Shown piece by piece: positions 13,572 through 34,466 of a DNA stretch of 64,000 nucleotides (the first letter of the stretch is position 1; every line of letters starts with the position of its first letter). Made by a program: the position numbers and the translations under genes. The notes under the pieces are model-generated. The model was not told where the DNA came from and did no database searches. It saw only the letters and a program-made list of their open reading frames with translations. The stretch comes from an uncultured Paracoccaceae bacterium (GTDB lineage: Bacteria; Pseudomonadota; Alphaproteobacteria; Rhodobacterales; Rhodobacteraceae): the NCBI GenBank assembly GCA_947487205.1, contig CANKVU010000023.1:1-64000 (forward strand), written 5' to 3'.

Positions 13572-14834
13572 TTACTTCTTCGCGCCGGGACCCCACGGCC
13601 CCATGTATGCGTCGTCTTTCTCCCAGGATCGGCGGACCCTCGGACGCTGACGCGTCACGCCGCCTCCGCTCGGTGGAGCTGGAGGATTGCCACCTCCCCT
13701 CATCTGTCCCCGCGCATGTTCCGCGCCGGCCGCTCGCGCGGCCTGACGGCGATCCGACCAACTGGTCTGCCGCCCGAACCTTGCGTTCGTTGCGCCAATG
13801 TCCTCCGCGCCCTGCTTCCGAGCGGCCGTCGTTTCCTTCCAGGACTGCGCAGTCGCACGCCAGCGGCTGTTGCCCCCGCGCGCTTCACTGGAACCAAGCC
13901 CGGCCGAAGCAGCCGCCGCGGCTTGTGTGACCCGTGGTCCACTATGACGGCCCACAAACTTTGCCCCCGACACGCTGGAGCGACCAGCACTCTTCGTGAG
14001 GTCCATGCCCTGACGTGCTTCGCGGAAGCCGTTGGCGGTCGCGACGATGGAGCCCGAGAGACCATTCACCAGCGTCGGAACTTGCGCCATCAGGAAGATC
14101 GCGGCCGCCGCGACGATGATGAACCCGGCGGCATCGGAAAGCTGCGACGCGCCATCGGCTGCCATGGCCAGCCCCTGTCCTATACCGAGAACCGTGCCAA
14201 TTACACCGGCGAGGACGAGCGGGATAAGCGCGAAACCGATAGTGAACCGCACCCAGCTCTCAAAGAGATTGCCGGTTGCTCGAAACATGAGAGTCGGGAT
14301 GAAAACCGGGGCGAGCGAGATCGCCATGGCGAGACCGACTTTGCCGAGGGAGGCCACGAGGATGGCGGCGCAAGCCATCAGTGCTCCCGCAATCCAGACA
14401 ACGATAGAGGCGAGGCTGATCGAGTAGAACGCGCTTTCGTCGGCAGCACGATCCGAGAACTCGAACAACTCGGTTATCATCAGGTCGAGGCCCTCGTAGA
14501 GATTGTCAGCGTCTCCAATCCCAGCGGCCGCCAGAAAATTGCCACCAATATCAGCCGGGACGTTCGTGACGATGTCGTAGATCGGTTGGAACTGCGCCCA
14601 GCTCGTCGCGACGGCCGTGATGACGACGAACCGGACCCCCCAAACGAGGTAGCTTCCGACACGGATCGGCACCCATTGCGTCAGCGTGTTGAGAGCCATG
14701 AAGGCCAACCCGACAAGACCCATGATCTGGCACGTCGTAGTGATCGGCCCGGCCAGGTTCAGGAACACCGCTTCGGCGTATCCACCGATTGCTGCGTCAA
14801 TCTGACTAAGAGTTTCCGCTACATGCGTCGCCAT
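13572..14834 (-). CDS. virB6: VirB6/TrbL-type polytopic channel protein
   Basis: The 420-residue membrane protein has about six hydrophobic segments between residues 25 and 290. It shows the VirB6 features PITTTCQIMGLVGLAFM, a large periplasmic loop (about 75-130) and SIVVWIAGALMACAAILVASLGKVGLAMAISLAPVF-like helices. The C-terminal 130 residues are basic, Gly/Ala/Arg-rich and probably cytoplasmic. It forms part of the inner-membrane DNA channel. A GGGAG ribosome site precedes ATG at 14834. Confidence 0.9.
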   Translation of the reverse strand: MATHVAETLSQIDAAIGGYAEAVFLNLAGPITTTCQIMGLVGLAFMALNTLTQWVPIRVGSYLVWGVRFVVITAVATSWAQFQPIYDIVTNVPADIGGNFLAAAGIGDADNLYEGLDLMITELFEFSDRAADESAFYSISLASIVVWIAGALMACAAILVASLGKVGLAMAISLAPVFIPTLMFRATGNLFESWVRFTIGFALIPLVLAGVIGTVLGIGQGLAMAADGASQLSDAAGFIIVAAAAIFLMAQVPTLVNGLSGSIVATANGFREARQGMDLTKSAGRSSVSGAKFVGRHSGPRVTQAAAAASAGLGSSEARGGNSRWRATAQSWKETTAARKQGAEDIGATNARFGRQTSWSDRRQAARAAGAEHARGQMRGGGNPPAPPSGGGVTRQRPRVRRSWEKDDAYMGPWGPGAKK

Positions 14835-15964: not shown

Positions 15965-16086
15965 ACGATAGCCTCCTGATCGGTGTTGATGGGTTCCCAG
16001 TTGCACGCGCACGGCGACGTGCGTTCGGTGTAGGTTGCGCACCCGCCGAGCAGAGCGGTCAGGGCGAGCAGGGCCACGAGCTTCAT
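15961..16086 (-). CDS. virB7: Small VirB7-like lipoprotein
   Basis: A 41-codon gene encodes MKLVALLALTALLGGCATYT followed by a short polar tail with two further cysteines. The lipobox LLGGC places the acylated Cys at residue 16. VirB7 proteins of this size anchor the VirB9 core complex to the outer membrane. It is tightly coupled: its ATG overlaps the virB4 stop and its TGA overlaps the virB5 ATG. The position between virB4 and virB5, rather than between virB6 and virB8, is unusual, so an entry-exclusion lipoprotein is an alternative. Confidence 0.7.
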   Translation of the reverse strand: MKLVALLALTALLGGCATYTERTSPCACNWEPINTDQEAIV

Positions 16087-18419
16087 CAGACGGCTTCCTT
16101 CCATGTGTCATCGACGCGAGGTCCGGCCCCGAGCACATCGAGTAGCGGACCAAGAGCAGAAAGGTTGAAATCCACCACGGCACTGTCGTCGCCGTTGCGG
16201 ATCAGAACGTTCCGGTTTCCCGCGCCGGACGAGCCCAAGAAGTCCGCCTCCGCATCGGTAAGCCGGAGTGCGTCGAATTCGCCTTGCGTGGTGCTGGATG
16301 AGGGGAAGAGGATCTGCGTCGCCGCGCTTTCCATGATCGAGCCACCGGCGCGGCTCTCTACGATATGGCTCACGCGCTGGGTCAGCATGACGACCGCGAC
16401 GTTCTTCTTCCGCATCGTCAGCATCCAGTCTTTGAGCCGGGACTGGAAATACTCGTCATCGAGCATCTTCCACGCCTCATCGAGCACGACGAGCGTGGGC
16501 CGTCCGTCCTCGATGGTGCGCTCGATCCGGCGGAAGACATAAGAAAGCCAGGCCGTGCGAACCGCCGGAATGTCGAGGACTTCCGAGAGGTCGAAAGCCG
16601 TCACATCGTTGTTGAAGGCAAGGGGATCGGCATCCGTTCCAGTGAAGAGCCAATCGTATTGTCCGCCCACGTCCCATGGAGACATCCGGGTATAGAGGTC
16701 GCCGTCATCATCGACCGACATGAGCTGCGAGCGAAAATGCGGCAGGGTTTGCAGGTCGGGGACTGCATCTGCGCTCGCCTGCGTCGCGTTCGCCAACGCC
16801 TCGTTTTGAGCCGGCGACAACGGATCGGCCCCGCCTCCGGTCAAAAGCGCCCCCAGCCAATCGGTCAGCCAGGCCGTGCCGCGTGTATCAGCTTCGGCGC
16901 GGAACGGGTTGAAGCCGGTGTGTTCCCCGAGGCGAACAGGGGAGTAGCTGCCGCCAAGCGCCCGCATCGGCGCTTCGAGACCGCGATCCTTGTCGAAGAC
17001 GATGATCCGCGGGTTCACCCGCTGGGCCTGCGCCAGTAGGAACGCGGTCCCGAGCGACTTGCCCGAGCCGGTGCGACCAATGACGAGGGTATGGCCCACG
17101 GTCAGATCGCCCGGCGACCCCGCGAGGTGGAAATTGAAATGGTAGGGCTCGCCCGTCAGCGTCGGCAGCGTCGTGATCGGAGCGCCCCAGGGTTCCTCGC
17201 CCGGCAGGAGACCCTTGTTCGCCCCATGCAGCGCGGCGAAATCCGCGAAGCAGGCCGACGAGATCATGGAGGGCCGCGCCCGGTGAGCGAAGTTGCCGGG
17301 GTGCTGCGCGAAGTAGGCGCTCCGCGCACCAATGTCCTCGCGCACCGGCACGCCCTGGATGCGTTGCAACGCCGTGCGGACTCGGCTCGATAAGGCGTCG
17401 AGTTCGTCCTTGGTCCGCGTCGTCACCATCACCGTGAGTTGGTGGTGCCCAAAATTGATCCGGCCGGACGCGAGGTCGTCGGCCGCGTTCACGAGGTCTT
17501 CCCGTGCCGAGATCGCCGCGTCGTCGGCCGCGCTCATCTGGCGGGCGGTGCGCTGCACGCGGGAGAGCGCCGGCACAGTGTCCATCGGTGTAAAGGAATG
17601 ACCGATCACCGTGTTCGCCGGGAGATCAAGATTGCCGAGGAACCCCGTCACGGTCTCGTTCGGGTAGCCCTTGAGGCAGAACATTGCGCCCCATCGCATG
17701 TCGGCGCTGTTCATCCCGGCGACGAAAAACGTATCGCCCCGGAAGTCCACGCGGGACTCGGAGATAAGATCGCGGACGGGCCGGAAGTCGCGGGGCGGCT
17801 GAACGCGATTGAATTTACCCGTCGTCATCATTTTGAGATAGCCAAGCCAGCGCCCGTCGCTGGCTGTCAGCCGCTCAGGGCGCGTGGCCGAGAGAGCCTG
17901 CATCATGGTCGCGACGACTTCCTCGAGTTTCGCGATCCGCCGCTCGATCAAGTCTCGGCCGCTCTTTTTCGAGCCGCCGGTGAGTTTCGCCCAGAGCGTC
18001 GAAAGGGTCTGGGGCCGGATCACGACCGTCACCATCGTCGTCCGCTGGCGCAGGTTCATCCGCCCCAGAGCGGACTGCCATTGACGGTCGATCATTGCCG
18101 CGAACCCGTCGCCCGGCACGGGCGGCATTGCCGGATCGGCCTCGTGCGAAAAGCGGTGGACATAAAAAGCCGTATCAGCTTCGGCCTGAGCGACGTTTGC
18201 ACTCATGGCCTCCGCTACATCATCGACCAGTTGACCTTCGGTCGTGTCCGCATTGACCCCTTCCACGACGAAGGAGGCCATCACGTCACCGTCGCGCAGC
18301 AAGATCACACCGTCCCGAATGATCGACAGATAGGGGAGGTATTCCGCCAAGTATTGTTCGCGCGCGATCCCCTTCGGATCGGTCAGCTTCCGGGCGGCGC
18401 TCTGCTTCTTCTTAAGCAC
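16086..18419 (-). CDS. virB4: VirB4 type IV secretion ATPase
   Basis: The 777-residue ATPase has an N-terminal VirB4 domain (EYLPYLSIIRDGVILLRDGD) and a C-terminal RecA-like domain. That domain carries Walker A IGRTGSGKSLG, Walker B PTLVVLDEAWKMLDDEYF and the RMTMRKKN-to-LTQRVSHIVES motif region. It energises pilus biogenesis and substrate transport at the inner membrane. The GTG start overlaps virB3 by eight bases, and the stop overlaps the lipoprotein start. Confidence 0.96.
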   Translation of the reverse strand: MLKKKQSAARKLTDPKGIAREQYLAEYLPYLSIIRDGVILLRDGDVMASFVVEGVNADTTEGQLVDDVAEAMSANVAQAEADTAFYVHRFSHEADPAMPPVPGDGFAAMIDRQWQSALGRMNLRQRTTMVTVVIRPQTLSTLWAKLTGGSKKSGRDLIERRIAKLEEVVATMMQALSATRPERLTASDGRWLGYLKMMTTGKFNRVQPPRDFRPVRDLISESRVDFRGDTFFVAGMNSADMRWGAMFCLKGYPNETVTGFLGNLDLPANTVIGHSFTPMDTVPALSRVQRTARQMSAADDAAISAREDLVNAADDLASGRINFGHHQLTVMVTTRTKDELDALSSRVRTALQRIQGVPVREDIGARSAYFAQHPGNFAHRARPSMISSACFADFAALHGANKGLLPGEEPWGAPITTLPTLTGEPYHFNFHLAGSPGDLTVGHTLVIGRTGSGKSLGTAFLLAQAQRVNPRIIVFDKDRGLEAPMRALGGSYSPVRLGEHTGFNPFRAEADTRGTAWLTDWLGALLTGGGADPLSPAQNEALANATQASADAVPDLQTLPHFRSQLMSVDDDGDLYTRMSPWDVGGQYDWLFTGTDADPLAFNNDVTAFDLSEVLDIPAVRTAWLSYVFRRIERTIEDGRPTLVVLDEAWKMLDDEYFQSRLKDWMLTMRKKNVAVVMLTQRVSHIVESRAGGSIMESAATQILFPSSSTTQGEFDALRLTDAEADFLGSSGAGNRNVLIRNGDDSAVVDFNLSALGPLLDVLGAGPRVDDTWKEAV

Positions 18420-20399: not shown

Positions 20400-20920
20400 C
20401 GCTGCCTCTCGCTCATCAATTCACAGGCGAGTTACCACAGCGGCAAGCTATGACAAACGTGAACAGAAGGTCAGGTTGTTATTCTGACCCATCTTCTGGT
20501 CTCGGTTGTAAGCCTATATTGATCCAAAAACGTCTTTCAACCCAGAAAGAGATTTTGGACCGAACAAAGTTTCTGCTCGTCAGCCTGAGCAACTTTCGGT
20601 AGTGTCGGGGTGCCGTAAAGGGAGGCTCGGTCGCAAGGCGGCCTTCGCCTTCAATTGCGGCCATTAACAATCGCGTGTAACGATGCAACCCAAAAGCAGA
20701 AGAATCTGAGGAGCAGGCAAGGAGCAGACCCCAGAAAAGATAACCCCCGCTAAGGCGGCAACCTAGCGGGGGGCTAAACCTAAGGGACGGCAATCCCTGA
20801 AAATCTTCTGATCGAGATCCGGTTTAGTCCCTCTTCCGTGGTTGAGCAAGCGAAAACGCATCTGTGCGAACGGGTGTGGCTTGCCTGCCGCCTTGCGGTC
20901 CAACCGTGAGGAAACGAGCA
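20400..20920. promoter_or_regulatory. Divergent control region between the virB operon and repC
   Basis: About 520 bases lack a credible gene and separate the minus-strand virB operon from plus-strand repC. They contain an inverted repeat GGTCAG-N9-CTGACC (20469-20489) close to the expected virB promoter. They also contain a strong hairpin that acts as a terminator only on the minus strand (20744-20772). The overall AT content is higher than in neighbouring coding DNA. A repC-controlling antisense RNA is the most likely further content. Confidence 0.6.
20735..20772 (-). terminator. Minus-strand terminator upstream of repC, possible antisense-RNA terminator
   Basis: Arms CCCCCGCTA (20744-20752) and TAGCGGGGG (20764-20772) pair perfectly with an 11-base loop. 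Read on the minus strand, the hairpin is followed by TTATCTTTT, giving a rho-independent terminator facing away from repC. In repABC-type replicons a short counter-transcribed RNA ends in such a hairpin just upstream of repC. A weak promoter-like TTGCTC with TAAACC 16-17 bases later lies upstream on the minus strand (about 20820-20850). Confidence 0.6.
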
Positions 20921-22108
20921 GTGAACCAAGACCATACAAGCACGCAAGAACGTGCAGACGATGTTGTGGGGACATTCCCCAAGCTAACCGACGGACTTCA
21001 ACGCGACAGCTTTCTCGTCCTGATCGAGGCGGCCCGGCCTATCCTAAACATCGGGCGGGGCGCGCTGTGCACCCTCCGCGCGCATGCGCGCCATACTCGA
21101 CCGCGCGACTGGACCAGTCCGGATCGGGAGCCGGTTTGTTACAAGCGTCAGATCGACATCGCAGCCGAGATCGGTGCAGACGAGCGTACCGTCCGGCGCC
21201 ACGAACGCGCCCTCGAGGCGGCCGGCCTGATCGAGTGCCGGACGATGGGGAACGGCAACCGCAGCCTGGTCGGAGAGCGTGGGATCGTTTTTACCCCAGC
21301 GATCCGGAAGATGGACCAAATCCGGTGCTACCTGGCGCACCGCGAAGCAGAGCATCGTGAAGCCGCCCAGCTCCGCGCCGAACGAAGCACCCACAAGCGT
21401 CTCATCGTCGACCACTTGAGAGAGCACGACGAGGGCAGGGGTCTTACACAGGAACTCGTGGAGATCGCAAATGCCATTGCCATGTGGCCGAGCGCGTCTG
21501 GATTGCGCGGCCTGCCCCTTGAAGCCCTCCGCAAGCATGTGAAAGAGGCGAGTATCCTTGCCGAGCGTCTGTGGACTTTTTGCAATGACCGGACAGAAGA
21601 GTCCGCTCGACCGGACAAAAATGTCCGGTCCTATATACAAGCTACAAACGAAGACATCTTTGTATCCTGTAATCCGTCACCGGATCACGACTGCTTAGAA
21701 AAAAAGAAGAGAGCGGCCGACGCACTGGACAAGGCCGATCCCCTGGTAAATCTGACACCGCGGCGGATCTACGCTCTGGCCTCTGAAGATTTGAGGTTTC
21801 GAGTGGATCTGCGGAAGGGGGATCGGTTCGTTCCGACCTGGCACGACATCGAAATGGCCGCCCATGACCTGCGTCCTGATCTTGGGATCGGGCCTGAGAG
21901 CTGGACGCAGGCGATCGAGACCATGGGCGGCCCGATGGCGACCCTTGCCCTTATTCTGGCCGATGCGCGGCGTGAGCACCCAACAGACCCGGTACGAAAC
22001 CCGGGAGGATATCTGCGCGGCATGACCCGGGCCTTTCAAAAGGGGCGACTGAACTTGGTCGGCAGTCTTGAAGGGCTCTCGCTCTGGAGACGAAGAGAGA
22101 CGGCATGA
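20921..22108 (+). CDS. repC: RepC-type plasmid replication initiator
   Basis: The 395-residue protein matches RepC of alphaproteobacterial plasmids. It has an N-terminal winged-helix domain (QIDIAAEIGADERTVRRHER and ALEAAGLIEC), a middle region with LPLEALRKHVKEAS, and a C-terminal domain ending NPGGYLRGMTRAFQKGRLNL. RepC binds an origin usually located inside its own gene. The GTG start follows GAGGAAACG; an ATG frame from 20864 lacks a site and overlaps the regulatory region. No repA or repB neighbours are present, so partition must come from elsewhere (perhaps the VirC1 ATPase) or is absent. Expression is probably limited by the antisense region upstream. Confidence 0.88.
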   Translation: MNQDHTSTQERADDVVGTFPKLTDGLQRDSFLVLIEAARPILNIGRGALCTLRAHARHTRPRDWTSPDREPVCYKRQIDIAAEIGADERTVRRHERALEAAGLIECRTMGNGNRSLVGERGIVFTPAIRKMDQIRCYLAHREAEHREAAQLRAERSTHKRLIVDHLREHDEGRGLTQELVEIANAIAMWPSASGLRGLPLEALRKHVKEASILAERLWTFCNDRTEESARPDKNVRSYIQATNEDIFVSCNPSPDHDCLEKKKRAADALDKADPLVNLTPRRIYALASEDLRFRVDLRKGDRFVPTWHDIEMAAHDLRPDLGIGPESWTQAIETMGGPMATLALILADARREHPTDPVRNPGGYLRGMTRAFQKGRLNLVGSLEGLSLWRRRETA

Positions 22109-23347: not shown

Positions 23348-26038
23348 CTATTCGCGTTTTCCTACCGCGGCACGCAACTGACCCGTCATGTCGATCCCGT
23401 GTGCCATCTTGCGGACCATGAGAAAGACATTTCCCGTCGTTCGTGCCCAAATGCGCCCGATCGTGTCCTTCTCCCGCGCTTCAGGGGCCCCGACCAGGTG
23501 CTCGCCCTTGTATTCCACCACGAAGAGGCGCCCGTCGGTAAGCCGCGCGATGAAATCCGGATAGAAGCGGTGCCCGACGCGGGGCAGAGAGAAGGAGTGC
23601 GGGTGTCGAGCGACGTTGCGGGTCCAGACCTCCACCTCGTCCAGACTGTCGAGCGACCAGGCACATTGAAATTCCTCCCCGTTCGCATCGCCATCAATGA
23701 GGGGTGCACGGTCGGCACCCAGCAGGTGGCGGCGGAAGCGGAAGGCTCCTGTGGGCTGGGTAGGAACAGTGGCATAGGTCTCGGCATCGAATCGGATGAT
23801 CTGCCGTGTATCATGGGTTGGCGCGGCCTCGTCATCCAGTAAGGCCATCTGGTAAGCGCGACGACGCGCCTCCTCGCGAATGGAGCCCAGCTTCCAGCGG
23901 ATGCGCGCGGCTACCTGATGTTGCCAGTCGATCAAGGTGCGGACATCGAGGCCGCGCTCCGTCAGTAGATCGGTGATCAGCGCCGCGATCCAGGGCATTA
24001 TCTCGGACTGGGGAATGTCCGGCGCACGGCATTCACGCTCGAGCCATTGAACCAGCGACGCCTCGAGATCCGCGTCCGAGGCCGTGGAGAAGCCCGGAAG
24101 CGCAGTCTGCTCCTGCGTCGTGCGGCTGTAGACGAGACGCTCACCATCGAGATCGATTTCCACCACATCGTGCGAGCGATGGAAGCTCAGCTCCTCTTCC
24201 GACAGGCGCGCGGCGTGGCGGTCGAGCGACCAATCCACGCGCTCCATCATCGCATCGGTCTCGGCCAAGAAGGTCTCGCCCTCCATGCGAACCAGAAGCT
24301 GTGGCACCTCGATAGTGACGCCCCGTTCTGCGAGGGAACGATCAGCCTCCACATTTGCGCGGTGATCGGCGATGCGGGCCTCGAAAGCGGGGAGTTCGGC
24401 AGCAGGCGTGATGTCTCGGACCGTGTTCGCTACCTCCTCCGATACCGCCCCGCGGACACCAACGACCAACGTACCGTCCTCCTTCGGGACGAAATCGACG
24501 CCCTCGTCCTGCAGCGCATAAAGGCGCGTCCGGGTCGCCTCGTCATCGGCCACGGTGACCTGGAAGACGGGTTTCGGGCGCACCGGATCGGGATCGAACA
24601 GAGTGCCCTGCGGGTCGACCTCGATGCCGCGTGGCTTGAGGCTCTCGCGCACCTCTTCGTCGGTGAAGCCCATGTCGATAAGCTTGTCGGTCAGTGCCTG
24701 CGCCGCTTCGCGGAACGAGGGCTCGGAGACATGGGCGTAAGCGCTGTTCAACGCGGCATCCTTGCGCCGGGCGGCGTAGGGCATGCGCAGCACACGGCCC
24801 AGGAGCTGTTCCACCGCACTTTTGCTCTGAAGACGTTGGGTCGCGCAGAGGACATAGGCCGAGGGGCAATCCCACCCCTCTTTCAGCGCGTCCACGGTGA
24901 TAACGTGGCGCGTCTGTTCTTTCGGGTCGCGCAGGTTCACCCCGTCGAGTTCGCGCTGCTCCCCTGTCGCAATGCGAATGCGATCCTCGGGGACCAGCTT
25001 TTCTTCCACCAGGTATCGTTTCAGCTCGGCCACGGTGGGATGCCCGTTCTTCGCCTGAGCCTGGTAGAGCACCACCGGGCGGATGTGGTCGCGATCCCTA
25101 TTGGCTTTCTCCTCGAGCATGTTTCGCGTCGCTACCGCGCCCGTCACCGCCTCGCGCCAGTCGTCATGCGGGCGGACGCGGATCGGCAGCTTGATCATCT
25201 CTTCGTCCTTCAACGCGCGGGCGGTGACGGAATGCAGGATGTTGTTGCGGTCCCTGGGTGTGGCGGTGAACTCGACGATGGCGGCTGGACGGATACGGGC
25301 CTGCACATCGCGCGTGAGGCCCGAGACCGCGTTATGCGCCTCATCCACGATCATCAGCGGCCGCTGGTGATAGAGCAGGTTGGCAAAGGAGAACTTCACC
25401 GCGCCGGCGGTCAACATGTCGTTCCCCGCCGCTTCCTCCGGAGAGACAACCTCCATTCCCTCCGTCGGTACGGCCGAGAAATGCGGCTCCAGCTCCTCAT
25501 GATGCGCATAGACTTTGCGCCCCGTGGTGTTCGTTACCCGGAACGCCTGGATGGTCGAGACCACCACGCACGCCGATCGCGCCAGGTCCTGGGGGCGCAA
25601 CATTTCGAACTCGGCGATGTCGAAAACGCGCACATGGCCGCCGAAATTCTCGTCGAGGCGGCGGCGATAAGGATGGGCGCGGTCCTTCAGTGCCTCCAGC
25701 GTTTGCGTCTTGATGGCGTCGGACGGCACGAACCACAGGGTCAGGGGATGGGCCCGGCGCAGGTAACTGCGCGCGGCGAGCCGGATCGTCTCGGCGGCCA
25801 GTAGCGTCTTGCCGCCCCCGGTGGGCAGGCGGAGGCAGACATAGGGCACGTCCGGCAGCGCTTCGAGCGGTCGATAGGTGCGCGGCTCCAACTTGCGCCC
25901 CTCCAGCGCTGAAAGCCGCTCCTGCTGGGCAACCGCGTGGGCGAAGGCGGCTTCCGGCCCTGAGGCCAAGGCCCGGGCGAAGAAAGCGTCGAGCGTGGCG
26001 AGCGTGGCCTTCTGGTACTCCTTGAGCTGCATGGTCAC
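23348..26038 (-). CDS. res: Type III restriction enzyme Res subunit (helicase-nuclease)
   Basis: The 896-residue protein is a superfamily 2 ATPase: Q/Walker A region CLRLPTGGGKTLLAAE, Walker B IVDEAHNAVS, motif III EFTATP, and motif VI QLLGRVLRMP. A C-terminal PD-(D/E)xK nuclease follows (HRFYPDFIARLTDG then LFVVEYKG). With the adjacent Mod methyltransferase it forms a type III restriction-modification system that translocates on DNA and cuts unmodified targets. Its start overlaps the mod stop (ATGA), so both are expressed together. Confidence 0.9.
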   Translation of the reverse strand: MTMQLKEYQKATLATLDAFFARALASGPEAAFAHAVAQQERLSALEGRKLEPRTYRPLEALPDVPYVCLRLPTGGGKTLLAAETIRLAARSYLRRAHPLTLWFVPSDAIKTQTLEALKDRAHPYRRRLDENFGGHVRVFDIAEFEMLRPQDLARSACVVVSTIQAFRVTNTTGRKVYAHHEELEPHFSAVPTEGMEVVSPEEAAGNDMLTAGAVKFSFANLLYHQRPLMIVDEAHNAVSGLTRDVQARIRPAAIVEFTATPRDRNNILHSVTARALKDEEMIKLPIRVRPHDDWREAVTGAVATRNMLEEKANRDRDHIRPVVLYQAQAKNGHPTVAELKRYLVEEKLVPEDRIRIATGEQRELDGVNLRDPKEQTRHVITVDALKEGWDCPSAYVLCATQRLQSKSAVEQLLGRVLRMPYAARRKDAALNSAYAHVSEPSFREAAQALTDKLIDMGFTDEEVRESLKPRGIEVDPQGTLFDPDPVRPKPVFQVTVADDEATRTRLYALQDEGVDFVPKEDGTLVVGVRGAVSEEVANTVRDITPAAELPAFEARIADHRANVEADRSLAERGVTIEVPQLLVRMEGETFLAETDAMMERVDWSLDRHAARLSEEELSFHRSHDVVEIDLDGERLVYSRTTQEQTALPGFSTASDADLEASLVQWLERECRAPDIPQSEIMPWIAALITDLLTERGLDVRTLIDWQHQVAARIRWKLGSIREEARRRAYQMALLDDEAAPTHDTRQIIRFDAETYATVPTQPTGAFRFRRHLLGADRAPLIDGDANGEEFQCAWSLDSLDEVEVWTRNVARHPHSFSLPRVGHRFYPDFIARLTDGRLFVVEYKGEHLVGAPEAREKDTIGRIWARTTGNVFLMVRKMAHGIDMTGQLRAAVGKRE

Positions 26039-27585
26039 GTCCTCGCCGAGATGTCGTAGGGTGTCTGGCGAAAGAGGATGCCTTGGTCCTTCAGCGTTGC
26101 GTCCGAAAGGCGGCAGGCGGCACCGTAGACCACCAGATCGCCTGCGAAGTCCGGGGCAGCGGTGGCGAGCTCGTCGCGTATCAAGCGCAGCACGGGACGG
26201 GTCAGCACGTTGCCCCCGCCGGCGCTGCGGTCCTTCAGGATGCCATTATAGAGTAGCGCTACGACGCGCTCCCCCGCTACCCCCAGCAAGGGGCTATTCG
26301 GTACGTTGCCAAGCGGCTGGCGGGTTTCGGAAAACCAGACGTGCCGGGCGAGATCGGCGAAACGGATCGCGGGGTCGATCCGCCCGTCTTCGTCGAACAC
26401 GGCCTGCCCGAGGGCGCAGAAGCGGAACCCCCCGCCGCCATGCCAGTCCACGTCTTTGGAGATCCCGCCCTGCTCGCCCTCGACGACCTTCTGCATCCGC
26501 AGCGCGCAATGGGTGCGGGCATGGTCACCCATCTCCACTCCGATCCAGCGGCGGCCCATCTTGTGCGCGACGGCGGCCGTGGTGCCGGAACCAAGGAAGG
26601 AGTCGAGCACGAGGTCGCCGGGATTGGTGGCGATGTGGAGGATGCGCTGGATGAGAGCTTCAGGCTTTGGCGTAGAGAAATCGGCATCTGCGGAGAGCGC
26701 GCGAACTTCTCGCCTCGCGTCCTGATTGTCTCCGACCTCAGTCCGCAGCCACAGAGTATCCGGGACAATTCCCGTCTTTACCTCGTTGAGAAAAGACTTT
26801 TTTCGCGGCTTCTCTAGCTCACCGTTTGTACCCCACCAGAGCCTCGCATCCCGGATGTTCTCTTTGGTGGCGCCGCGATCAAAGGCCCAGACCCGGTTTC
26901 GAGCTGGCCAGACATCATGGCCGGTCTTCGGATGCTGGATCGGGTAGTAGAGGTTGGGTCTCTCGTCGACGGTTTTGGCACAGGTGTAGACGACCGACTG
27001 CCAAAGACCTCGCGGATCATCGTCTGGATTCTTGTAGCCTTTCAATTGTTGCTCTGTGCGGGGGATTTTCTGAGGCGAGAAGTCGACGGCTGACTTCGCA
27101 TAGACGTGAACGTGATCGTGGCTATTGCTGAAACCAAAGGCGTCGTTTTGCTTTGCGTACTTCTTCTGCCAGATCACGTTTCCAACGAAATTCCGCCGCC
27201 CGAAGATCTCGTCCATCACGACCTTGAGGTAATGTCCCTCGTTGTCGTCGATCGACACCCAGATCGAGCCGTCCTCGCTCAGGAACTCGCGCAGCAGCGT
27301 CAGGCGGGGCACGATCATGGCCAGCCATTTCGCGTGCTCCAAGCTGTCGTCGTAATGCTCGAAGGCCGAGCGGGTGTTGTAAGGCGGGTCGATATAGATG
27401 CATTTCACCCGGCCCGCGTAGAAGGGCAGCAGCGCCTTCAGCGCCTCCAGGTTGTCGCCCTGCACCAAGAGGCCGTCGTCGCCGTCGCCATGGCCCAGCT
27501 CCGGGATCTCGTCGAGCAGGCGGTACTGCACCCGATCCGCCGCACGCAGATCCTCGTCCCTCGTCAACCAGTGCAGCAGCGGCAT
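26035..27585 (-). CDS. mod: Type III DNA adenine methyltransferase Mod
   Basis: The 516-residue enzyme has catalytic DPPY (CIYIDPPYNTRSAFEHYDDS) N-terminal to the AdoMet motif LDSFLGSGTTAAVAHKMGR. This is the beta-class order of Mod subunits and related N6-adenine methylases. The central target-recognition region is around residues 170-270. The start MPLLHWLTRDED follows GGGGG seven bases upstream; the frame continues upstream to 27690 without a site. It precedes and overlaps res. Confidence 0.9.
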   Translation of the reverse strand: MPLLHWLTRDEDLRAADRVQYRLLDEIPELGHGDGDDGLLVQGDNLEALKALLPFYAGRVKCIYIDPPYNTRSAFEHYDDSLEHAKWLAMIVPRLTLLREFLSEDGSIWVSIDDNEGHYLKVVMDEIFGRRNFVGNVIWQKKYAKQNDAFGFSNSHDHVHVYAKSAVDFSPQKIPRTEQQLKGYKNPDDDPRGLWQSVVYTCAKTVDERPNLYYPIQHPKTGHDVWPARNRVWAFDRGATKENIRDARLWWGTNGELEKPRKKSFLNEVKTGIVPDTLWLRTEVGDNQDARREVRALSADADFSTPKPEALIQRILHIATNPGDLVLDSFLGSGTTAAVAHKMGRRWIGVEMGDHARTHCALRMQKVVEGEQGGISKDVDWHGGGGFRFCALGQAVFDEDGRIDPAIRFADLARHVWFSETRQPLGNVPNSPLLGVAGERVVALLYNGILKDRSAGGGNVLTRPVLRLIRDELATAAPDFAGDLVVYGAACRLSDATLKDQGILFRQTPYDISART

Positions 27586-27955
27586 GCTCGTCCCCCGTCC
27601 CGTCGGCTCTTGGTGGGCCGACTTGTCGCCGCAGGCTATGCGATCCCGTCCGGGCCGGGAAGCCGTCGGCTCTTCGACGTCTTGGTCCACTGTCTATGGG
27701 GTGCTGCAGCGCGTACCAAGCCAGAGAACTGACAAAAGGGATTTTCAGCTTGGTAGCGGCCGTTCGCCGTCCGGCGCCTGGATGACCGTAGCGCGGGGGC
27801 AGACTGCCACTGATAGTGGCCGCGAATGAGGTCGTACGCGGTCCCTGCCAGCCTCTTCGGGCAACCGAACGCTGCGTCGCAGCTTTCCCGAAAGCCACCG
27901 TTCCGGGTTGAGCGCAATGTCTGAATAGCTTGCGCTTTTTAGACGCCCTCTGGTC
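27586..27955. other. Intergenic region upstream of mod
   Basis: About 370 bases contain only chance frames. They should hold the promoter of the mod-res operon, transcribed leftward. The segment GTCTGAATAGCTTGCGCTTT near 27918 is more AT-rich than its surroundings, but no clear -35/-10 pair or hairpin stands out. Confidence 0.4.
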
Positions 27956-28490: not shown

Positions 28491-29288
28491 TCACGGTGGC
28501 GCTGTTGATCGGCTGGTCCCGTCTTCGGAAATTGACAGGGGCAGGCATACAGGGGCGCCGCTGAGTCCTGGAAGATGATAGCGTAGTCCGCCGTTTGCAA
28601 AACCGTGGCTGTCTACCCGCGGAAGGCCGAGCGGGGTGCAGATCTGTTCATTCGGGAAGATGCTCGACTCTTGCTGTGCTTTTCCGATCGCGGTCATCGT
28701 ATCAGTTACCCAATCGATCGCGACGATCAGCATGATCGCAAGGAAAGCCCGAAAAATGTGAGCCTGCGTCAGGCGGATATAGGTGATCTTCCTGTTATTG
28801 AGCGGATAATTCAGCCGCGTTGCGTCGATTAGCCGAGATGCTATCGTTGCTCGGGCGTCCTCATCGTCAAGGGCGTCGGACAGATCTCCCTCAGCAATCA
28901 CCACTGTCGCGCTCGGTGCCAAAGCCTTCGCCGAATACAACCCCGCCATAAGGATGTAGAGTAGGGCGATCGCGAGGAGGGCGAGATCCAACGCCAGCAC
29001 GGGGTACCGGAACCGGTTTGTTACCGAAGGCGTCAGGACACCAACCACGGGGAGCACGGCGGCAAGAAAAGCCAGATAGAGCGCGGCTTTGGTATCCGCG
29101 CTCTGTCGCCGCCGCACCTCATCGTCGTGCAATCGGGTCGCGACTTCCATTGCTAGCGCCGCGTTTTTCGCGAGGTTTTCAGTGGTTGCGACCCGGTCCG
29201 GCGGCTTGACCGAAGCGCTCCCCGCTTGGGGAAAGATTACGTCCAGCCAATCTATAAAACTAGTTTTCCACCCGCGTCCGTCGCTCAT
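28491..29288 (-). CDS. Three-helix membrane protein of the graspetide-like operon
   Basis: This 265-residue protein has a soluble N-terminus with helical AMEVATRLHDDEVRRRQ. Membrane segments follow at about 67-86, 96-119 and 178-196, the first introduced by a DTKAALYLAF motif. The cytoplasmic loop (about 125-175) is acidic then basic. The paired helices after a charged helix recall two-transmembrane effector domains such as SLATT or PycTM, but I cannot assign it to either. Its ATG overlaps the stop of the ATP-grasp gene (ATGA), so it is part of that operon. It could be an exporter partner, immunity protein or membrane effector. The last 60 residues look poorly conserved. Confidence 0.75.
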   Translation of the reverse strand: MSDGRGWKTSFIDWLDVIFPQAGSASVKPPDRVATTENLAKNAALAMEVATRLHDDEVRRRQSADTKAALYLAFLAAVLPVVGVLTPSVTNRFRYPVLALDLALLAIALLYILMAGLYSAKALAPSATVVIAEGDLSDALDDEDARATIASRLIDATRLNYPLNNRKITYIRLTQAHIFRAFLAIMLIVAIDWVTDTMTAIGKAQQESSIFPNEQICTPLGLPRVDSHGFANGGLRYHLPGLSGAPVCLPLSISEDGTSRSTAPP

Positions 29289-30247
29289 CGGATCAGCGCG
29301 TCTACGATAGTTGCAGCAATCGCTACTCCCTCGACCCGCTCTAACCAAGCCCATTGCCCGTTCGGATTTGCCTCCAAAAACCAGAAACTTCCGTCCCGAT
29401 CCTCGACTAGGTCGATTGCAGCGAAGCGTAGATTGAGGTTATGGACGACTGCTACGCAGGCGGATGCGACCGCGTCCGGCAGATCAATCCGTTCGTGCAG
29501 GAGATCGGTCCGTTCGCCGCGGCGCCAGTCCACCCGGGTCTCCTCGTGCGCCTGAGAGTGGATTGCGACCGCGATGGCGATCCAGTCCACAACCGTGACG
29601 CGCAGATCGCGACGTTTTGGAATTTGTGCTTGTACAATCACTGGTACGGCCTCGAACGCCACGCGGTCCTCCTCGCGCAGATTGGCCAGCTTTGAAGTAA
29701 AGATGACTTGGCCGGGCCCGCTCGGGTCTTCTACCAGCGCTCGGCGCAGCGGCTTGATCACACACTCATGCGCCGCGAGAAGGCTCTGCGCGGAGTCGAT
29801 CTCGTTTCCAATCGCCGTGGGTGGAACGCGCAGTCCGCAGGCGCGGGCGACGGCCAACTGGCGCGGCTTGTCCTCTGCGCGCAAAATCGCAAAGGGCGAG
29901 TTCAGCCAGCGCCCCTCCAGCGCGTTCCAAAGGCTGCGCGCTGCGGCGCTCCACTCCTGCACCGCGTATGCACGCGCCTCGCTGGCTCCGTTTTCGCCGG
30001 GCTCGGGCCGTTCCGGACGGCGGTAATAACCTGACCCGAAACTGGCGAGATCGTGCGCGACACCGCGAACCTTGATCGTCCCGGTCAGTGCGTCCGCCTC
30101 CGCGAACGTTACGACCGTCTTTGGCAGGTCCTCGGTGTTGAGGCGAAGAAAGGGCACATCTCGGCGGCGCAGTTCCTGGACGAGGTAGTCGGTAGTAATG
30201 TCCTGCTTGTTGGTCGCGAGCAGGACGCCGCTGGCGAACTTAGACAA
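29285..30247 (-). CDS. MvdD-like ATP-grasp peptide ligase (graspetide maturase)
   Basis: The product is about 320 residues long and resembles microviridin-type ligases. An N-terminal preATP-grasp domain (VLLATNKQDITTDYLVQELR, FLRLNTEDLP) leads to a central domain with SPFAILRAEDKPRQLAVARA and the ATP-binding lysine in CVIKPLRR. The C-terminal metal site LRFAAIDLVEDRDGSFWFLE continues with ANPNGQWAW, closely matching MvdC/MvdD. Such enzymes join acidic side chains to Thr/Ser or Lys in a precursor peptide, making ester or amide macrocycles. The likely TTG start (30247) sits at the end of the preceding precursor gene, whose stop it overlaps. The next gene overlaps by ATGA. Function is inferred from family and operon. 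Confidence 0.82.
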   Translation of the reverse strand: MSKFASGVLLATNKQDITTDYLVQELRRRDVPFLRLNTEDLPKTVVTFAEADALTGTIKVRGVAHDLASFGSGYYRRPERPEPGENGASEARAYAVQEWSAAARSLWNALEGRWLNSPFAILRAEDKPRQLAVARACGLRVPPTAIGNEIDSAQSLLAAHECVIKPLRRALVEDPSGPGQVIFTSKLANLREEDRVAFEAVPVIVQAQIPKRRDLRVTVVDWIAIAVAIHSQAHEETRVDWRRGERTDLLHERIDLPDAVASACVAVVHNLNLRFAAIDLVEDRDGSFWFLEANPNGQWAWLERVEGVAIAATIVDALIR

Positions 30248-30599
30248 GCATCTCGGCGGTGTCGTCGGCTTCCCGTCCCGCATCCGTCTTGGTTTGAATT
30301 GCCGCGATTAGCACACCCGGACCTTCGTCTTCTTGTTCAAGTTTAATCGCGGTCTTGGTCTGCAGCATATTGCCCGCAGAAAGCGAAGGGTCATCGTCCT
30401 GCTCGGTGTGCGTTCGCGACTTGGTCTTAAGCGAGGGTAGCGGGCCGGGCGTATGGATTGCAGGCTCTTCGCCCTCTGGCGTCTGCACCAGCCACATGTC
30501 GCGCTCAAAACAGTAGCGTCCGGGCAAGAGTGGCTCAGCCCGGCGCGGAATGGCGTATCGCAGCAGGATGGGCTGAGTCTCTTCTGCCATGCGATCCAT
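30240..30599 (-). CDS. Candidate graspetide precursor with three 22-residue repeats
   Basis: A 119-residue protein: residues 1-50 form a possible leader or recognition region (AIPRRAEPLLPGRYCFERDM), followed by three motif copies starting at residues 57, 79 and 101, exactly 22 apart. They read LKTKSRTHTEQDDD, LQTKTAIKLEQEDE and IQTKTDAGREADD, that is [LI]-x-T-K-[ST] followed six to seven residues later by an acidic cluster. Threonine and acidic side chains spaced like this are what ATP-grasp ligases connect in graspetides. AAGAGAG lies seven bases before the ATG, and the stop overlaps the ligase start. The repeat class is not one I recognise; precursor assignment is inference from pattern and context. 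Confidence 0.72.
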   Translation of the reverse strand: MDRMAEETQPILLRYAIPRRAEPLLPGRYCFERDMWLVQTPEGEEPAIHTPGPLPSLKTKSRTHTEQDDDPSLSAGNMLQTKTAIKLEQEDEGPGVLIAAIQTKTDAGREADDTAEMLV

Positions 30600-30630: not shown

Positions 30631-30848
30631 TGGCCTGCCCCGTCGGGTGGTCCGGTTTAAGTCTTAGTGCATAACGGGTCTCGGCACCAAGGTGGATGCC
30701 TGCGGTAGGGCTAGTTCCGGTCCACAAGACGGGGGCTAGGGGATGGCGGCCGGCGCAGGCGGTCGATAGCCCAGCGGTGAGTGAGGCCGCACCGTATGGT
30801 AGTGAACCAGCCACGCCTCGATCGCCACGAGGGCTTCGGCCAGCGTCG
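30631..30848 (-). mobile_element. Remnant of an IS3-family (IS407-like) element: transposase C-terminus and one end
   Basis: On the minus strand a frame to the stop at 30736 encodes LAEALVAIEAWLVHYHTVRP then HSPLGYRPPAPAAIP. This is the characteristic C-terminus of the IS3-family integrase-type transposase (HYNTxRPHSSLGYRPPAP). Downstream, TGGCCTGCCCCGTCGGGTGG (30631-30650, plus strand) followed by TCCGGTTT resembles the terminal inverted repeat of that group. The rest of the element is missing; its inner end abuts the stop of the ABC-type ATPase gene. The IS end lies 31 bases before the graspetide precursor start. Confidence 0.75.
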
Positions 30849-30851
30849 AGC

Positions 30852-32696
30852 CTAATTGAAAAGCCCTTGGCCACCATCGTAGCGAAGCGCCTTCACAGCC
30901 TCCGGCAGGTCGCCTGGCGGTGTATCATTCTCGATGACGATAAATTGGGCGACATCTGATAGACTCGCGAGGTGGGCGTAGAACCTCGCGTTTAATCCCG
31001 TCTCGGCCAAGGCCTCGTCGCCTTCATCGCGAACCTCGCCGTCCGACGGCGCGCGGTAGGCGCGAAGCGGAGTGTCCAAGATGAGGAACCCCGGGTGCGG
31101 GCGCTGCTGCTCATGGCAGTGAATCAGAAGTGCGACCTGGAAGGCCGAATGGAGGATTGCGCGGACGCCCTTGCCGTTCCCGCGCCTCTCCTTGCCATCG
31201 ACGATGAGGTCTTGGGCGGCAAGGTCGAAAATCACCGTCTCGACGTTGGGATAGCCCCAAGCCACCAGCACCCGCTTGACCACGAGCGCGAGATCGTGTG
31301 CCTCCGCTGTCGATAAACTTGGATCGAAATCCTCGGCCTTGGGCCGGCCCGGGATCGCCTGCGCCTTCAAGACGGTGATGCGCCGCTCGATCTCCTCGAT
31401 GCGCGCGCGGCGGCTTTGCTCTTCACGCAGGCGGCGCAGGGTTTCGTCGGCGGCCACGAACCTCTCGCGAACTCCTCGGTCATCGCCGGCGAGGTTGCTA
31501 AGCGTGGCGCGCTCACCTTTCAACTGCTCCTGGAGGTCTGCAGCCGACTTCTGACCGTCTTCAATTTCTTGTCGAATGCGGGACAGTGTATCGTCCAATT
31601 CAGCACGTTCACGTTTGATTTTTGCGATCTCGCTCGCGACGGCGGCTTGCTGTTCGGCGATCCGGTCGAGATGGGGGTCGTCATGCTGATGCGCCGGATC
31701 TGCCCCGCAGAGCGGACAGTTCATCTGCGCGAACTTGCGCGTTAGGAAACCCCCTTCCTCCAACCCTTCTAGCCTGGTGATGTCGGAGATCAGCGTCCGG
31801 CGCAGTTCATTGAAGCGTAACGACATGGCGCGCAGGTCAGCCGTCCGCGCCTCGATGTCTCGATGCAAGTCCCGCGTCGTGTTGACGACCGACCGCGCGG
31901 CATCGATGGCGTTCTGGCGTTCACGAACGGCGGCATCAGCCCCGCCGCGCTCCGCTTCCGCGTCTGCGATGGCGGCACCGAGCGCTTCGTCCGTTCGATC
32001 CGGATCAATCTCGGCGAGGTCGCTTTCGAGGAGTTCCTTTAGAACTGTGATCTTGCCATTGCGCGCGGCAGTCTGCTCGATCTTGGATGGGACGGTCGCA
32101 ACGGCCGATCCGTCGATCCCGGTTACGATGAATTTCAGAAGGCTCTTATCTTCTGCCGTGGGGGCGTCGCCCTTGCGAACCGTGACGCTGTCCTCGCCGA
32201 CGATCCGCTTCTCGTCGACGTAGACATGCCGCATCAATTGGCGGAAAGTGAATGCCACCTTCTCGGCGCGCTCGTTCTTCAGGAGTTCAGCTCGCCGAAA
32301 GCCGAGGCGGTCGAGCAGATTCGTCGATAGGCTTGCTCCGGTCTCCGCATGCTGCGCGCCCAGGCTCGCGTAGCCGGGCATGCTGGTACTAATCGTATCG
32401 TGGTGGCCTTCCGCTATTTCGATGGCACCGCCAGCGATGCCGCGCTGAAGCGTGATCTGCTCTCCGTCGCCGAAGGAGAGCCAAAGGGTGCAACGGTTCA
32501 TCCCGCGCCCTTCGGGAGGTATGGAAAGTGCTCCCCTTGCACCGAGCAAGAAGTCGACCGCCTTAGCGGTGAAGGACTTCCCATGGTTCGACGCCCCCCA
32601 GAGAATGGTAAGGCCCGGTCCGTAGTGGACGACTACCTGATCGCGCTCCGGGCCGCTAAAGGCCAAACGGTCGATATGCATCCGGACCGGCGGCAT
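30852..32696 (-). CDS. ABC-three-component (ABC-3C) system SMC/RecN-like ATPase
   Basis: The 614-residue ATPase has Walker A LWGASNHGKSFTAKA near residue 35, a long coiled coil (about 230-460) interrupted by a zinc-hook-like CPLCGA, and Walker B GFLILDTPLRAY near residue 530. Rad50/SMC-type ATPases with a CxxC hook, followed by two smaller overlapping partners, define ABC-3C conflict systems described by comparative genomics. It is the last gene of a three-gene operon, beginning three bases after the middle component. It probably couples sensing of invading DNA or RNA to the effector. Its gene borders the IS remnant. Confidence 0.75.
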   Translation of the reverse strand: MPPVRMHIDRLAFSGPERDQVVVHYGPGLTILWGASNHGKSFTAKAVDFLLGARGALSIPPEGRGMNRCTLWLSFGDGEQITLQRGIAGGAIEIAEGHHDTISTSMPGYASLGAQHAETGASLSTNLLDRLGFRRAELLKNERAEKVAFTFRQLMRHVYVDEKRIVGEDSVTVRKGDAPTAEDKSLLKFIVTGIDGSAVATVPSKIEQTAARNGKITVLKELLESDLAEIDPDRTDEALGAAIADAEAERGGADAAVRERQNAIDAARSVVNTTRDLHRDIEARTADLRAMSLRFNELRRTLISDITRLEGLEEGGFLTRKFAQMNCPLCGADPAHQHDDPHLDRIAEQQAAVASEIAKIKRERAELDDTLSRIRQEIEDGQKSAADLQEQLKGERATLSNLAGDDRGVRERFVAADETLRRLREEQSRRARIEEIERRITVLKAQAIPGRPKAEDFDPSLSTAEAHDLALVVKRVLVAWGYPNVETVIFDLAAQDLIVDGKERRGNGKGVRAILHSAFQVALLIHCHEQQRPHPGFLILDTPLRAYRAPSDGEVRDEGDEALAETGLNARFYAHLASLSDVAQFIVIENDTPPGDLPEAVKALRYDGGQGLFN

Positions 32697-32698
32697 AG

Positions 32699-33217
32699 TC
32701 AGACCGAGTCTCCCATATGGATCGTTCCGTCGATCTCATGCTCCCAGCGATCCACGCCGGCCGAGAGCCGTTCGAAGAATGTCTCGTAGCCTTCGGTCTC
32801 GGCTTGGTCGGCGATCCACTGCGCAGCCTCGCGCAGCCTCGCGTTGTAGTCGCTCTGCATGAGATCGACCATGGCCGACGCCAGGTCCCGGGTGCGGAAA
32901 ATGAAACCATCAGCGTCCGCCAAGCGGTCCAGCAGAAAGGCCCTTTCCATCAATGCAAGGCCGTCCTCGACCAAACGGCGGCGCACGAAGAACTCGCCCC
33001 GCCGCGGTGATACGGGCGGATGGAGGCTCTCGGGACCGTCTTTATCCACGTCGATGTCACCGGCGTGGACGGCGTAGTAGTCGAGAAGCGACAGGGTTTT
33101 AAGATCGAAGGCTCTCGGCGCGAAGGCGTCGAGGATGACCACGGCCCGCAGGCCAGCTTCCAAGGGCGTATTGAACAGCGCGGGCTGATCGGGTGCAGGG
33201 ACGGTGTCGGCGCTCAT
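32699..33217 (-). CDS. ABC-3C middle component
   Basis: The 172-residue helical protein includes VILDAFAPRAFDLKTLSLLD, YYAVHAGDID, and RLVEDGLALMERAFLLDRL. This is the small bridging type of subunit found between the effector and ATPase in ABC-three-component systems. ATG at 33217 overlaps the stop of the upstream gene (ATGA); a longer frame from 33265 lies inside that gene. The specific middle-component subgroup cannot be fixed by eye. Confidence 0.65.
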   Translation of the reverse strand: MSADTVPAPDQPALFNTPLEAGLRAVVILDAFAPRAFDLKTLSLLDYYAVHAGDIDVDKDGPESLHPPVSPRRGEFFVRRRLVEDGLALMERAFLLDRLADADGFIFRTRDLASAMVDLMQSDYNARLREAAQWIADQAETEGYETFFERLSAGVDRWEHEIDGTIHMGDSV

Positions 33218-34245
33218 CGGTCCCACCGGAGCGGCATCGCGCCTTCGCTCGCGTGGTGGTGGCATGCGCCCTGCTTCGCGCGTGGCGTTACGCGGCGGTG
33301 CTTACCAAGCGGCCCGCTCACCTCGACATTGGCCGCCGTTCCAATCACACCGAGCAGGCGATCATAGCGCGGACCACCTTCATGCGCGTCGTAATGATCT
33401 TGGACGGCGTCGAGCACGTCCGTGTCGACTTGGTTGAGAAGGGCCGCGTCGAGGTTGTCCCGGAAGTGGAGGCGGAACGCTTTGCGCTCCAAGAACTGAC
33501 ATCGTGCGCGTGTCATACGTGGTCCGTAGTCAGGATCGGCCATCACCGCGTCGTGATCGGCGAAGGGAGTGCCTCTATGTTCGGCGTAGACCTTCTTGAT
33601 CTGTCCCAGATAGCCCACTTCATCGGCGCTCGGCGCAGCGGTCACCTCTGCATCACCCACTGTGGGCGCGGCCCCGGGGTCGTCGTCGAACAACTCGACC
33701 ATCAGGCCGCGCATCTGACGCTGTTCTACAATATCCGAGGCCTTCCACAACAAGACGTTCTCGAACGGGTATTGCTCGATGGCCGCGCATATCGCGGGCG
33801 TCAGAACGGCCTCGCCGTCGGTGATGCCCGTCCGGCAATGCGCGTCCCAGCCCTCGATCAGTGCTGGGCCGATCTTCGAGGGCCGACCGACGAGCTTGAG
33901 TACATCACGGACCGCCGAATTGGGCACGACGAATATGTAGCGGCGTGGCAGCGTGAACTCCCCCTGGTCCGCATAGAAAAACATCTTGCCCAACTCGATC
34001 AGGAACGCCCCAAAGCCGAGCGGCCGCTTGAGGTGCTTGCACTGATGGTTGTCCCAAGCATCGTCGTAGCGCTTCGCCGTTAGGAATCCCACCGCGTCGC
34101 GCCCCTGGTCCGCCGACGCGGTTGGGCGGTCGAAGCCGACATATTCATCACCTGCCTCGACCAGCCGGGCGATCCACTTCTTGATTAGCTCTTCGAGGTC
34201 GTCGTCAGTCAGGGCCAACAGTCGGCGCGTGTTATTCAACGGCAT
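33214..34245 (-). CDS. ABC-3C C-terminal-domain protein with restriction-nuclease-like N-terminus
   Basis: The N-terminal 120 residues resemble a PD-(D/E)xK nuclease fold: GFDRPTASADQGRDAVGFL then WDNHQCKHLKRPL, giving the G-x-D and Q-x-K elements of REase domains. A second half (about 200-343) carries ADEVGYLGQIKKVYAEH, RARCQFLERKAFRLHFRDN and a C-terminal helical part, as in ABC-3C C-terminal-domain proteins fused to effectors. It is the first gene of the operon. ATG 34245 has GAGGGAG six bases upstream, better than upstream codons. The expected role is a nuclease effector controlled by the ATPase; this is inferred. Confidence 0.7.
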   Translation of the reverse strand: MPLNNTRRLLALTDDDLEELIKKWIARLVEAGDEYVGFDRPTASADQGRDAVGFLTAKRYDDAWDNHQCKHLKRPLGFGAFLIELGKMFFYADQGEFTLPRRYIFVVPNSAVRDVLKLVGRPSKIGPALIEGWDAHCRTGITDGEAVLTPAICAAIEQYPFENVLLWKASDIVEQRQMRGLMVELFDDDPGAAPTVGDAEVTAAPSADEVGYLGQIKKVYAEHRGTPFADHDAVMADPDYGPRMTRARCQFLERKAFRLHFRDNLDAALLNQVDTDVLDAVQDHYDAHEGGPRYDRLLGVIGTAANVEVSGPLGKHRRVTPRAKQGACHHHASEGAMPLRWDR

Positions 34246-34466
34246 GTCAACTCCCTCGATCTCTAAAATCGACAGGCGTCGATCCAACGGCGAAAGTGTA
34301 GTCGTCAACCGCAGTCACCACCAGCGACCAGCTCTCATTCGTCATCTGACCGTCAGAGACGTATGAACCTGGATTCTGCCACACCCGGTTGGGACGAACA
34401 CCGTCAACGTATGCCGGCCTAACGATCTCGTGGAGAAAACGTCAGTCCACTGCATTCTAGCTGGGT

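Follow-up and report, generated by a model that had tools for sequence, protein, structure and literature searches.

What is the function of a small gene for a peptide with regular repeats that is followed by the genes of an ATP-grasp ligase and a membrane protein, and that is flanked by a type III restriction system on one side and a Lamassu system on the other? This arrangement lies in a stretch of 64,000 nucleotides from an uncultured Paracoccaceae bacterium (assembly GCA_947487205.1, contig CANKVU010000023.1, positions 1 to 64,000), which we call the window. The original prediction, made from the sequence alone, was that the peptide is the precursor of a graspetide and the ligase its modifying enzyme. 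This pairing of precursor and ligase is well supported by our analysis, which goes beyond the prediction in three respects: the size of the family, a third gene, and the setting in defence and mobile DNA. The repeat is a member of a large, widespread family, and a third, PycTM-like membrane gene is a new part of the unit. From its position among anti-phage genes, the peptide family may work in bacterial immunity. The unit has the following features.

30240–30599, minus strand: graspetide-type precursor, 119 amino acids plus stop codon, recognized by motif copies, conservation and the ratio of non-synonymous to synonymous substitution rates (dN/dS).
30513–30572, minus strand: leader recognition segment from P10 to Y29, fitting Phhx(1,2)h and including a conserved PGxY.
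30390–30431, minus strand: core repeat 1, LKTKSRTHTEQDDD, residues 57–70, from the motif scan and the alignment of 40 precursors.
30324–30365, minus strand: core repeat 2, LQTKTAIKLEQEDE, residues 79–92, from the same scan and alignment.
30258–30299, minus strand: core repeat 3, IQTKTDAGREADDT, residues 101–114, from the same scan and alignment.
29285–30283, minus strand: MvdC/MvdD-type ATP-grasp ligase (graspetide synthetase), from profile and sequence matches.
28491–29288, minus strand: third gene, a PycTM-like membrane protein of 265 amino acids, whose ATG overlaps the stop codon of the ligase (ATGA).

The coordinates predicted for the precursor proved exact. Its reading frame runs from 30599 to 30240 on the minus strand, and the plus-strand frame is interrupted by stop codons. 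The three predicted TK[ST]/acidic repeats were recovered as well: [LI]xTK[ST] occurs at residues 57, 79 and 101, with an exact period of 22 residues, and the full motif TK[ST]x4Ex[DE][DE] starts at residues 59, 81 and 103, its third acidic position being Asp. When the precursor protein was shuffled 200,000 times, one copy of the motif arose in 29 shuffles and two or more copies in none. The gene is under purifying selection, with dN/dS of 0.12–0.19 in the four comparisons that pair the window with a relative, in three of which the synonymous sites are close to saturation, and of 0.12–0.24 across seven comparisons; for all three genes of the unit the range is 0.11–0.24. Scans for promoters and terminators gave signals no better than in shuffled sequences, and no tRNA was found in a scan of the window.

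As listed, the reading frame of the ligase shares 44 bp with the precursor, and its expected assignment to the MvdD-like enzymes was borne out. It matches the profiles TIGR04187 (E 8e-74), MvdC (2e-49) and MvdD (4e-40), all three with scores under the NCBIfam curated cut-offs (the best, TIGR04187, reaching 248.7 against 350 bits), and phmmer aligns it with the solved ATP-grasp ligase 5ig8 (E 2.6e-32). Its nearest solved relatives by sequence carry the names ATP grasp ligase, MvdD-like, AMdnB and CdnC. In the search against family models, as proposed in the original prediction, no NCBIfam model matched any of 40 precursors at E ≤ 0.01; PADLOC models matched neither the precursor of the window (P0001) nor its ligase (P0002) at the same threshold. 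A RimK ATP-grasp domain is also present in the ligase, and an enzyme sharing this domain could add amino acids to the repeats in the manner of RimK, without cross-links, the repeats then being an acidic binding protein. However, the best full-length similarity of the ligase is to graspetide-type ligases, and conservation in the precursor is highest at Thr, Lys, Glu and Asp residues a fixed distance apart, so that we consider this explanation very improbable.

The size of the family was assessed by a pattern scan of one genome per species (84,980 species), which returned 539 stretches, 428 of them coding for a ligase relative. Of these 428, the best 80 were analysed, with the upstream open reading frames (ORFs) read in all 80; by record title, these 80 span alpha-, beta- and gammaproteobacteria, Bacteroidota, Bacillota and Nitrospirota. 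For each locus the upstream ORF richest in motif copies was taken as the precursor. This gave a set of 83 precursors (L003 and L011–L093, with the window left out and L072 dropped because its reading frame is broken), in which five pairs of loci share identical precursor ends. The relaxed pattern [TS]x[TS]x4Ex[DE][DE] occurs at least once in 82 of the 83 and at least twice in 80, L003 alone having no copy, while the strict pattern TK[ST]x4Ex[DE][DE] is found at least once in 80 and at least twice in 66. Position 2 was left free by the pattern but is Lys in 87% of the 253 repeat copies with sufficient sequence on either side; 67% of these copies have Leu two residues ahead of the first Thr and 68% have Glu three residues ahead of it.

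The prediction that the Thr and acidic positions would be the most conserved among homologues agrees with an alignment of 40 precursors chosen by hand, from which most sphingomonad precursors, with Lys often replaced, were left out. Its invariant columns are M1 and Y29 together with ten positions of the repeats (K, E, T and D); P10, R19 and additional T, K, E and D residues are nearly invariant. The sphingomonad sequences suggest that the minimum is two Thr, one Glu and two Asp. In the leader, P10 and the hydrophobic residues after it fit Phhx(1,2)h, the graspetide leader motif described by Makarova et al. 2022 (PMC8939145). No conserved GG-type cleavage site ahead of the core is visible by eye in the 40-row alignment; according to the same paper, such a site occurs in only about half of the precursors and is therefore not class-defining. 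The features of graspetides found here are an MvdC/MvdD-type ligase, an adjacent precursor with the leader motif, and Ser/Thr/Lys donors followed by Asp/Glu acceptors.

Some loci are of interest in themselves. L003 (268–2451, minus strand) is a distant alphaproteobacterial locus, in which the copies end in DPxDPDRVR and the ligase is 31% identical. A divergent triad from Bacteroidia, L157 (1339–3360, minus strand), has another repeat, EPxD[ST]D, in the same gene order. Two separate triads, L041 and L046, lie within one genome of Pseudomonas japonica, and in L075 (3856–4993) two overlapping ORFs with TKT repeats precede a single ligase.

The third gene was surveyed in 85 loci (the window, L003 and L011–L093). 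By the rule used, an ORF lies behind the ligase in 83 of them, and 78 of these ORFs form one BLAST-linked group; a profile built from 51 members adds L030, L070, L071 and L083, which brings the loci with a homologue behind the ligase to 82 of 85. The exceptions are L075, where the gene precedes the precursor ORFs, L011, where the contig ends, and L003, where the membrane protein in third position is joined to the family by neither BLAST nor the profile. The gene of L027 is split in two. The profile matches all 40 of 40 unit-carrying genomes, and all matches fall within the unit loci. By class it is rare, matching 2 of 385 genomes of Alphaproteobacteria, 1 of 369 of Gammaproteobacteria and 4 of 395 of Bacteroidia, in samples that include the search centres and with at most seven candidates scored per listed genome.

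The AlphaFold model of the third protein is all-helical (helices 43–85, 96–123 and 145–209; mean predicted local distance difference test score, pLDDT, 81). Across the family, P20 and R60 do not vary, and E57, K67, N165 and K167 hardly do. The long helices of the model hold R60, E57 and K67, as well as N165 and K167, at positions that by eye directly precede the first and last membrane spans and are probably cytoplasmic. Two further matches, NINJ1 (rank 22, E 0.72) and Claudin-3 (by sequence, E 0.007), were discounted as due to chance or to features common to membrane proteins.

The third protein has a remote similarity to PycTM, the membrane effector of Pycsar. PADLOC models of PycTM match 34, 28 and 24 of 53 third-gene proteins chosen by hand (E ≤ 0.05, best 1.8e-7), and models of CBASS-type 2TM effectors match 6, 5 and 4 of them. 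In 30 control membrane proteins, 10 of them taken from the flanks of units, every model matches at most one member, and the matches listed (25 of 56) include no PycTM model. Besides the centre, the third-gene profile recovered from the 395 Bacteroidia genomes only the divergent triad L157 and two HD-domain proteins, both of which carry Pfam PycTM (E about 5e-33); in a set of 566 proteins, these two score about 2e-7 with the third-gene profile and the next best 0.027. In an hhalign comparison, the third gene and two PycTM proteins gave a P of 0.00045, and a mixed alignment, which is a weak control, gave 0.54; the stretch common to both is an ADxKA-like segment ahead of the first span. HD-domain proteins with a C-terminal PycTM domain were seen directly upstream of an apparent polyphosphate kinase (L158, 895–2115; L159, 856–2079), with no cyclase among the ORFs read there.

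The constant parts of the unit are thus a peptide, a ligase and a membrane protein, and no transporter or peptidase recurs in the ORFs read, the wider flanks not having been scanned for exporters or peptidases. We therefore favour an effector gated by a graspetide: a three-gene module for defence, in which a graspetide controls a membrane effector inside the cell. To this reading we give an even chance of being correct. It would operate as follows. The ribosome would produce a precursor with several cores, whose leader would be bound by the ATP-grasp ligase; in each TK[ST]x4ExDD unit, the ligase would join the Thr or Ser, and perhaps also the Lys, to the downstream Glu or Asp, giving a multivalent cross-linked peptide that is retained in the cell. 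This peptide may be a ligand that restrains or triggers the PycTM-like third protein through its conserved cytoplasmic helices. Phage infection, for instance by destruction or release of the peptide, would then open the effector, and the opened effector would damage the membrane in an abortive-infection type of defence.

By analogy, the unit resembles a messenger-gated effector, with its logic of two parts, more than it resembles a secreted natural product. PycTM activated by cyclic pyrimidines disrupts membrane integrity (PMC11224242). Pycsar, which consists of PycC and PycTM, is likened to the unit by the putative remote PycTM relative; it differs in having the cyclase PycC where the window has a peptide-making pair. 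No PycC was found among precursor, ligase and third gene, in which no search aimed at cyclases was made. In Panoptes (OptSE) the logic is the same, a membrane effector under the control of a small ligand made next door, but the ligand is a cyclic dinucleotide and OptE carries a beta-barrel sensor (PMC12657218). No paper linking graspetides with PycTM or with defence islands is among the matches listed in searches of open-access papers, and searches with the motif strings gave nothing relevant.

The surroundings of the unit bear on its role. In the window they comprise the following features.

30852–34308, minus strand: LmuB, LmuC and LmuA of Lamassu (PADLOC), directly upstream of the precursor.
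About 30740–30880, minus strand: apparent C-terminal transposase remnant, by eye, between Lamassu and the precursor.
26035–27690, minus strand: type III methyltransferase (PADLOC), downstream of the unit.
23348–26038, minus strand: type III restriction subunit, by eye, with no PDB match.
20864–22108: RepC-like gene, by eye.
16086–18419: VirB4 (TrwK, E 1.7e-83).
13572–14834: VirB6-like gene, by eye.

Because of its VirB4, VirB6-like and RepC-like genes, the window is probably a conjugative plasmid or an integrated element. The association with defence genes recurs in the family. The flanks of 40 units, chosen by hand mostly by how long their contigs were (137 and 123 ORFs, triads removed), match 191 and 159 PADLOC models at E ≤ 1e-15, against 15 and 6 in paired controls (40 regions on the same contigs, 138 and 136 ORFs), these figures being counts of models, which are non-independent, and not of proteins. 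The defence names among the matches listed for the flanks include Gabija, Wadjet, type III and type I restriction, DRT2, PARIS AriA, Qat and Tmn; those listed for the controls include RtcR and mad genes, which we take as generic.

The unit also travels on mobile elements. TKT-repeat triads with the third gene occur on four viral contigs of IMG/VR (L094–L097, 4 of 17 matches). Such triads are also carried by Leptospira phage LE1 (L151), by a gut phage clone (L152) and, among plasmids, by those of Agrobacterium, Croceicoccus, Pseudomonas and Sinorhizobium (L091–L093 and L153). On a fifth viral contig, L098 (5780–7616), the short precursor-like ORF lacks TKT repeats; it is accompanied by a graspetide ligase and by a remote relative of the third gene (E 8e-8). 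Carriage by plasmids and phages, a compact and overlapping operon and the sporadic distribution (the counts given above for Alphaproteobacteria, 2 of 385 genomes, and Gammaproteobacteria, 1 of 369, search centres included) would all suit a maintenance module of mobile elements in the style of toxin–antitoxin systems, with the third protein as toxin and the peptide, possibly modified, as antitoxin. An ATP-grasp enzyme obliged to modify every repeat would nevertheless make this a costly antitoxin, and no precedent is among the matches listed in the literature searched; such a module is, moreover, hard to separate cleanly from defence. We regard it as improbable, less so than the amino-acid addition considered above.

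The strongest rival is a secreted graspetide similar to thuringinin, acting as a protease inhibitor or antibiotic, with the third protein as a transporter or immunity protein. Given the features in common, we consider it likely that the family of the window is the thuringinin group, but claim no membership. Thuringinin, cluster 13 of Makarova et al. (groups 3, 5 and 6 of Lee et al.), likewise has repeated Thr/Glu/Asp cores within one precursor, a single ATP-grasp enzyme and an uncharacterized membrane protein (PMC8939145, PMC12291112). The likeness is drawn from the published descriptions, and the parts of these papers that describe thuringinin mention neither a link to PycTM nor a defence island. 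No Bacillus is among the plasmid records in the matches listed (30 of 88). The cluster 18 membrane protein is specific to thuringinin loci, and Makarova et al. suggest transport for it (PMC8939145); thuringinin is trivalent, each of its repeats carrying two esters (PMC12291112), and the three repeats of the window might give a similar product. Against secretion stand the constant unit of precursor, ligase and third gene, the lack of a visible GG site in the 40 aligned precursors, and the third protein itself, which is small, has long helices and finds its best PADLOC matches in PycTM, its Pfam matches being weak and scattered. The richness of the flanks in defence models is a further argument. 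We therefore rate a secreted product as rather unlikely, and since the unit tends to lie among defence genes and on mobile elements, an intracellular defence role appears at least as likely as that of a secreted natural product.

Among other graspetides, microviridin is made by ligases of the same family (MvdC/MvdD), with the same type of leader motif and with Thr and Lys ahead of acidic residues. Its core is TxKxPSD, whereas the unit of the window has TKTx4ExDD repeats, one ligase and an effector-like membrane gene. Long repeat precursors are reported for graspetide groups 34 and 35 (PMC13097080).

Several results weigh against a graspetide-gated defence effector. Fold searches with the model of the third protein found nothing at E ≤ 0.001, neither in the PDB nor among viral proteins. 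Pfam PycTM matches neither five members of the third-gene family nor the third gene of L157 at E ≤ 5, and is not among the matches listed (25 of 61 families) in a Pfam scan of the 53 members. The Pfam matches that were obtained are weak and scattered; that of the L157 protein to MFS_1 (E 0.025) is one of them. As the hhalign probability for the third gene and the two PycTM proteins is also just 33%, the third protein is a remote relative of PycTM at best. The two PycTM proteins that score best in the set of 566 proteins had been drawn from that same third-gene profile. In addition to the non-independence of the models counted in the flanks, the control regions also hold defence names (PDC-S13, PDC-S35, PDC-S05, type I specificity and AriA). 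Genome-wide, 5 of 25 GajA genes lie within 15 kb of a unit (0.17 expected), in a test for which GajA was picked after it had been sighted in the flanks. N6_Mtase and HSDR_N, selected independently of the flank results, are weakly enriched, the former with 2 of 45 genes near a unit (0.31 expected, P 0.04) and the latter with 2 of 37, at the same two loci by a count made by eye. An exporter may lie nearby, in the wider flanks. Finally, every characterized graspetide is stated to be a protease inhibitor in the 2022 paper (PMC8939145), a statement that also speaks for the secreted product.

The proposal of a graspetide-gated effector has a wider form: an anti-phage system in which a cross-linked, multivalent ribosomal peptide, and not a nucleotide, is the signal or guard of a PycTM-like effector, this entire graspetide group having an intracellular immune function. 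We place this somewhat below an even chance. If true, a cross-linked peptide would act on a membrane effector as messenger or guard, as cyclic nucleotides are known to do, and a class of natural products would become accessible to the plaque assay.
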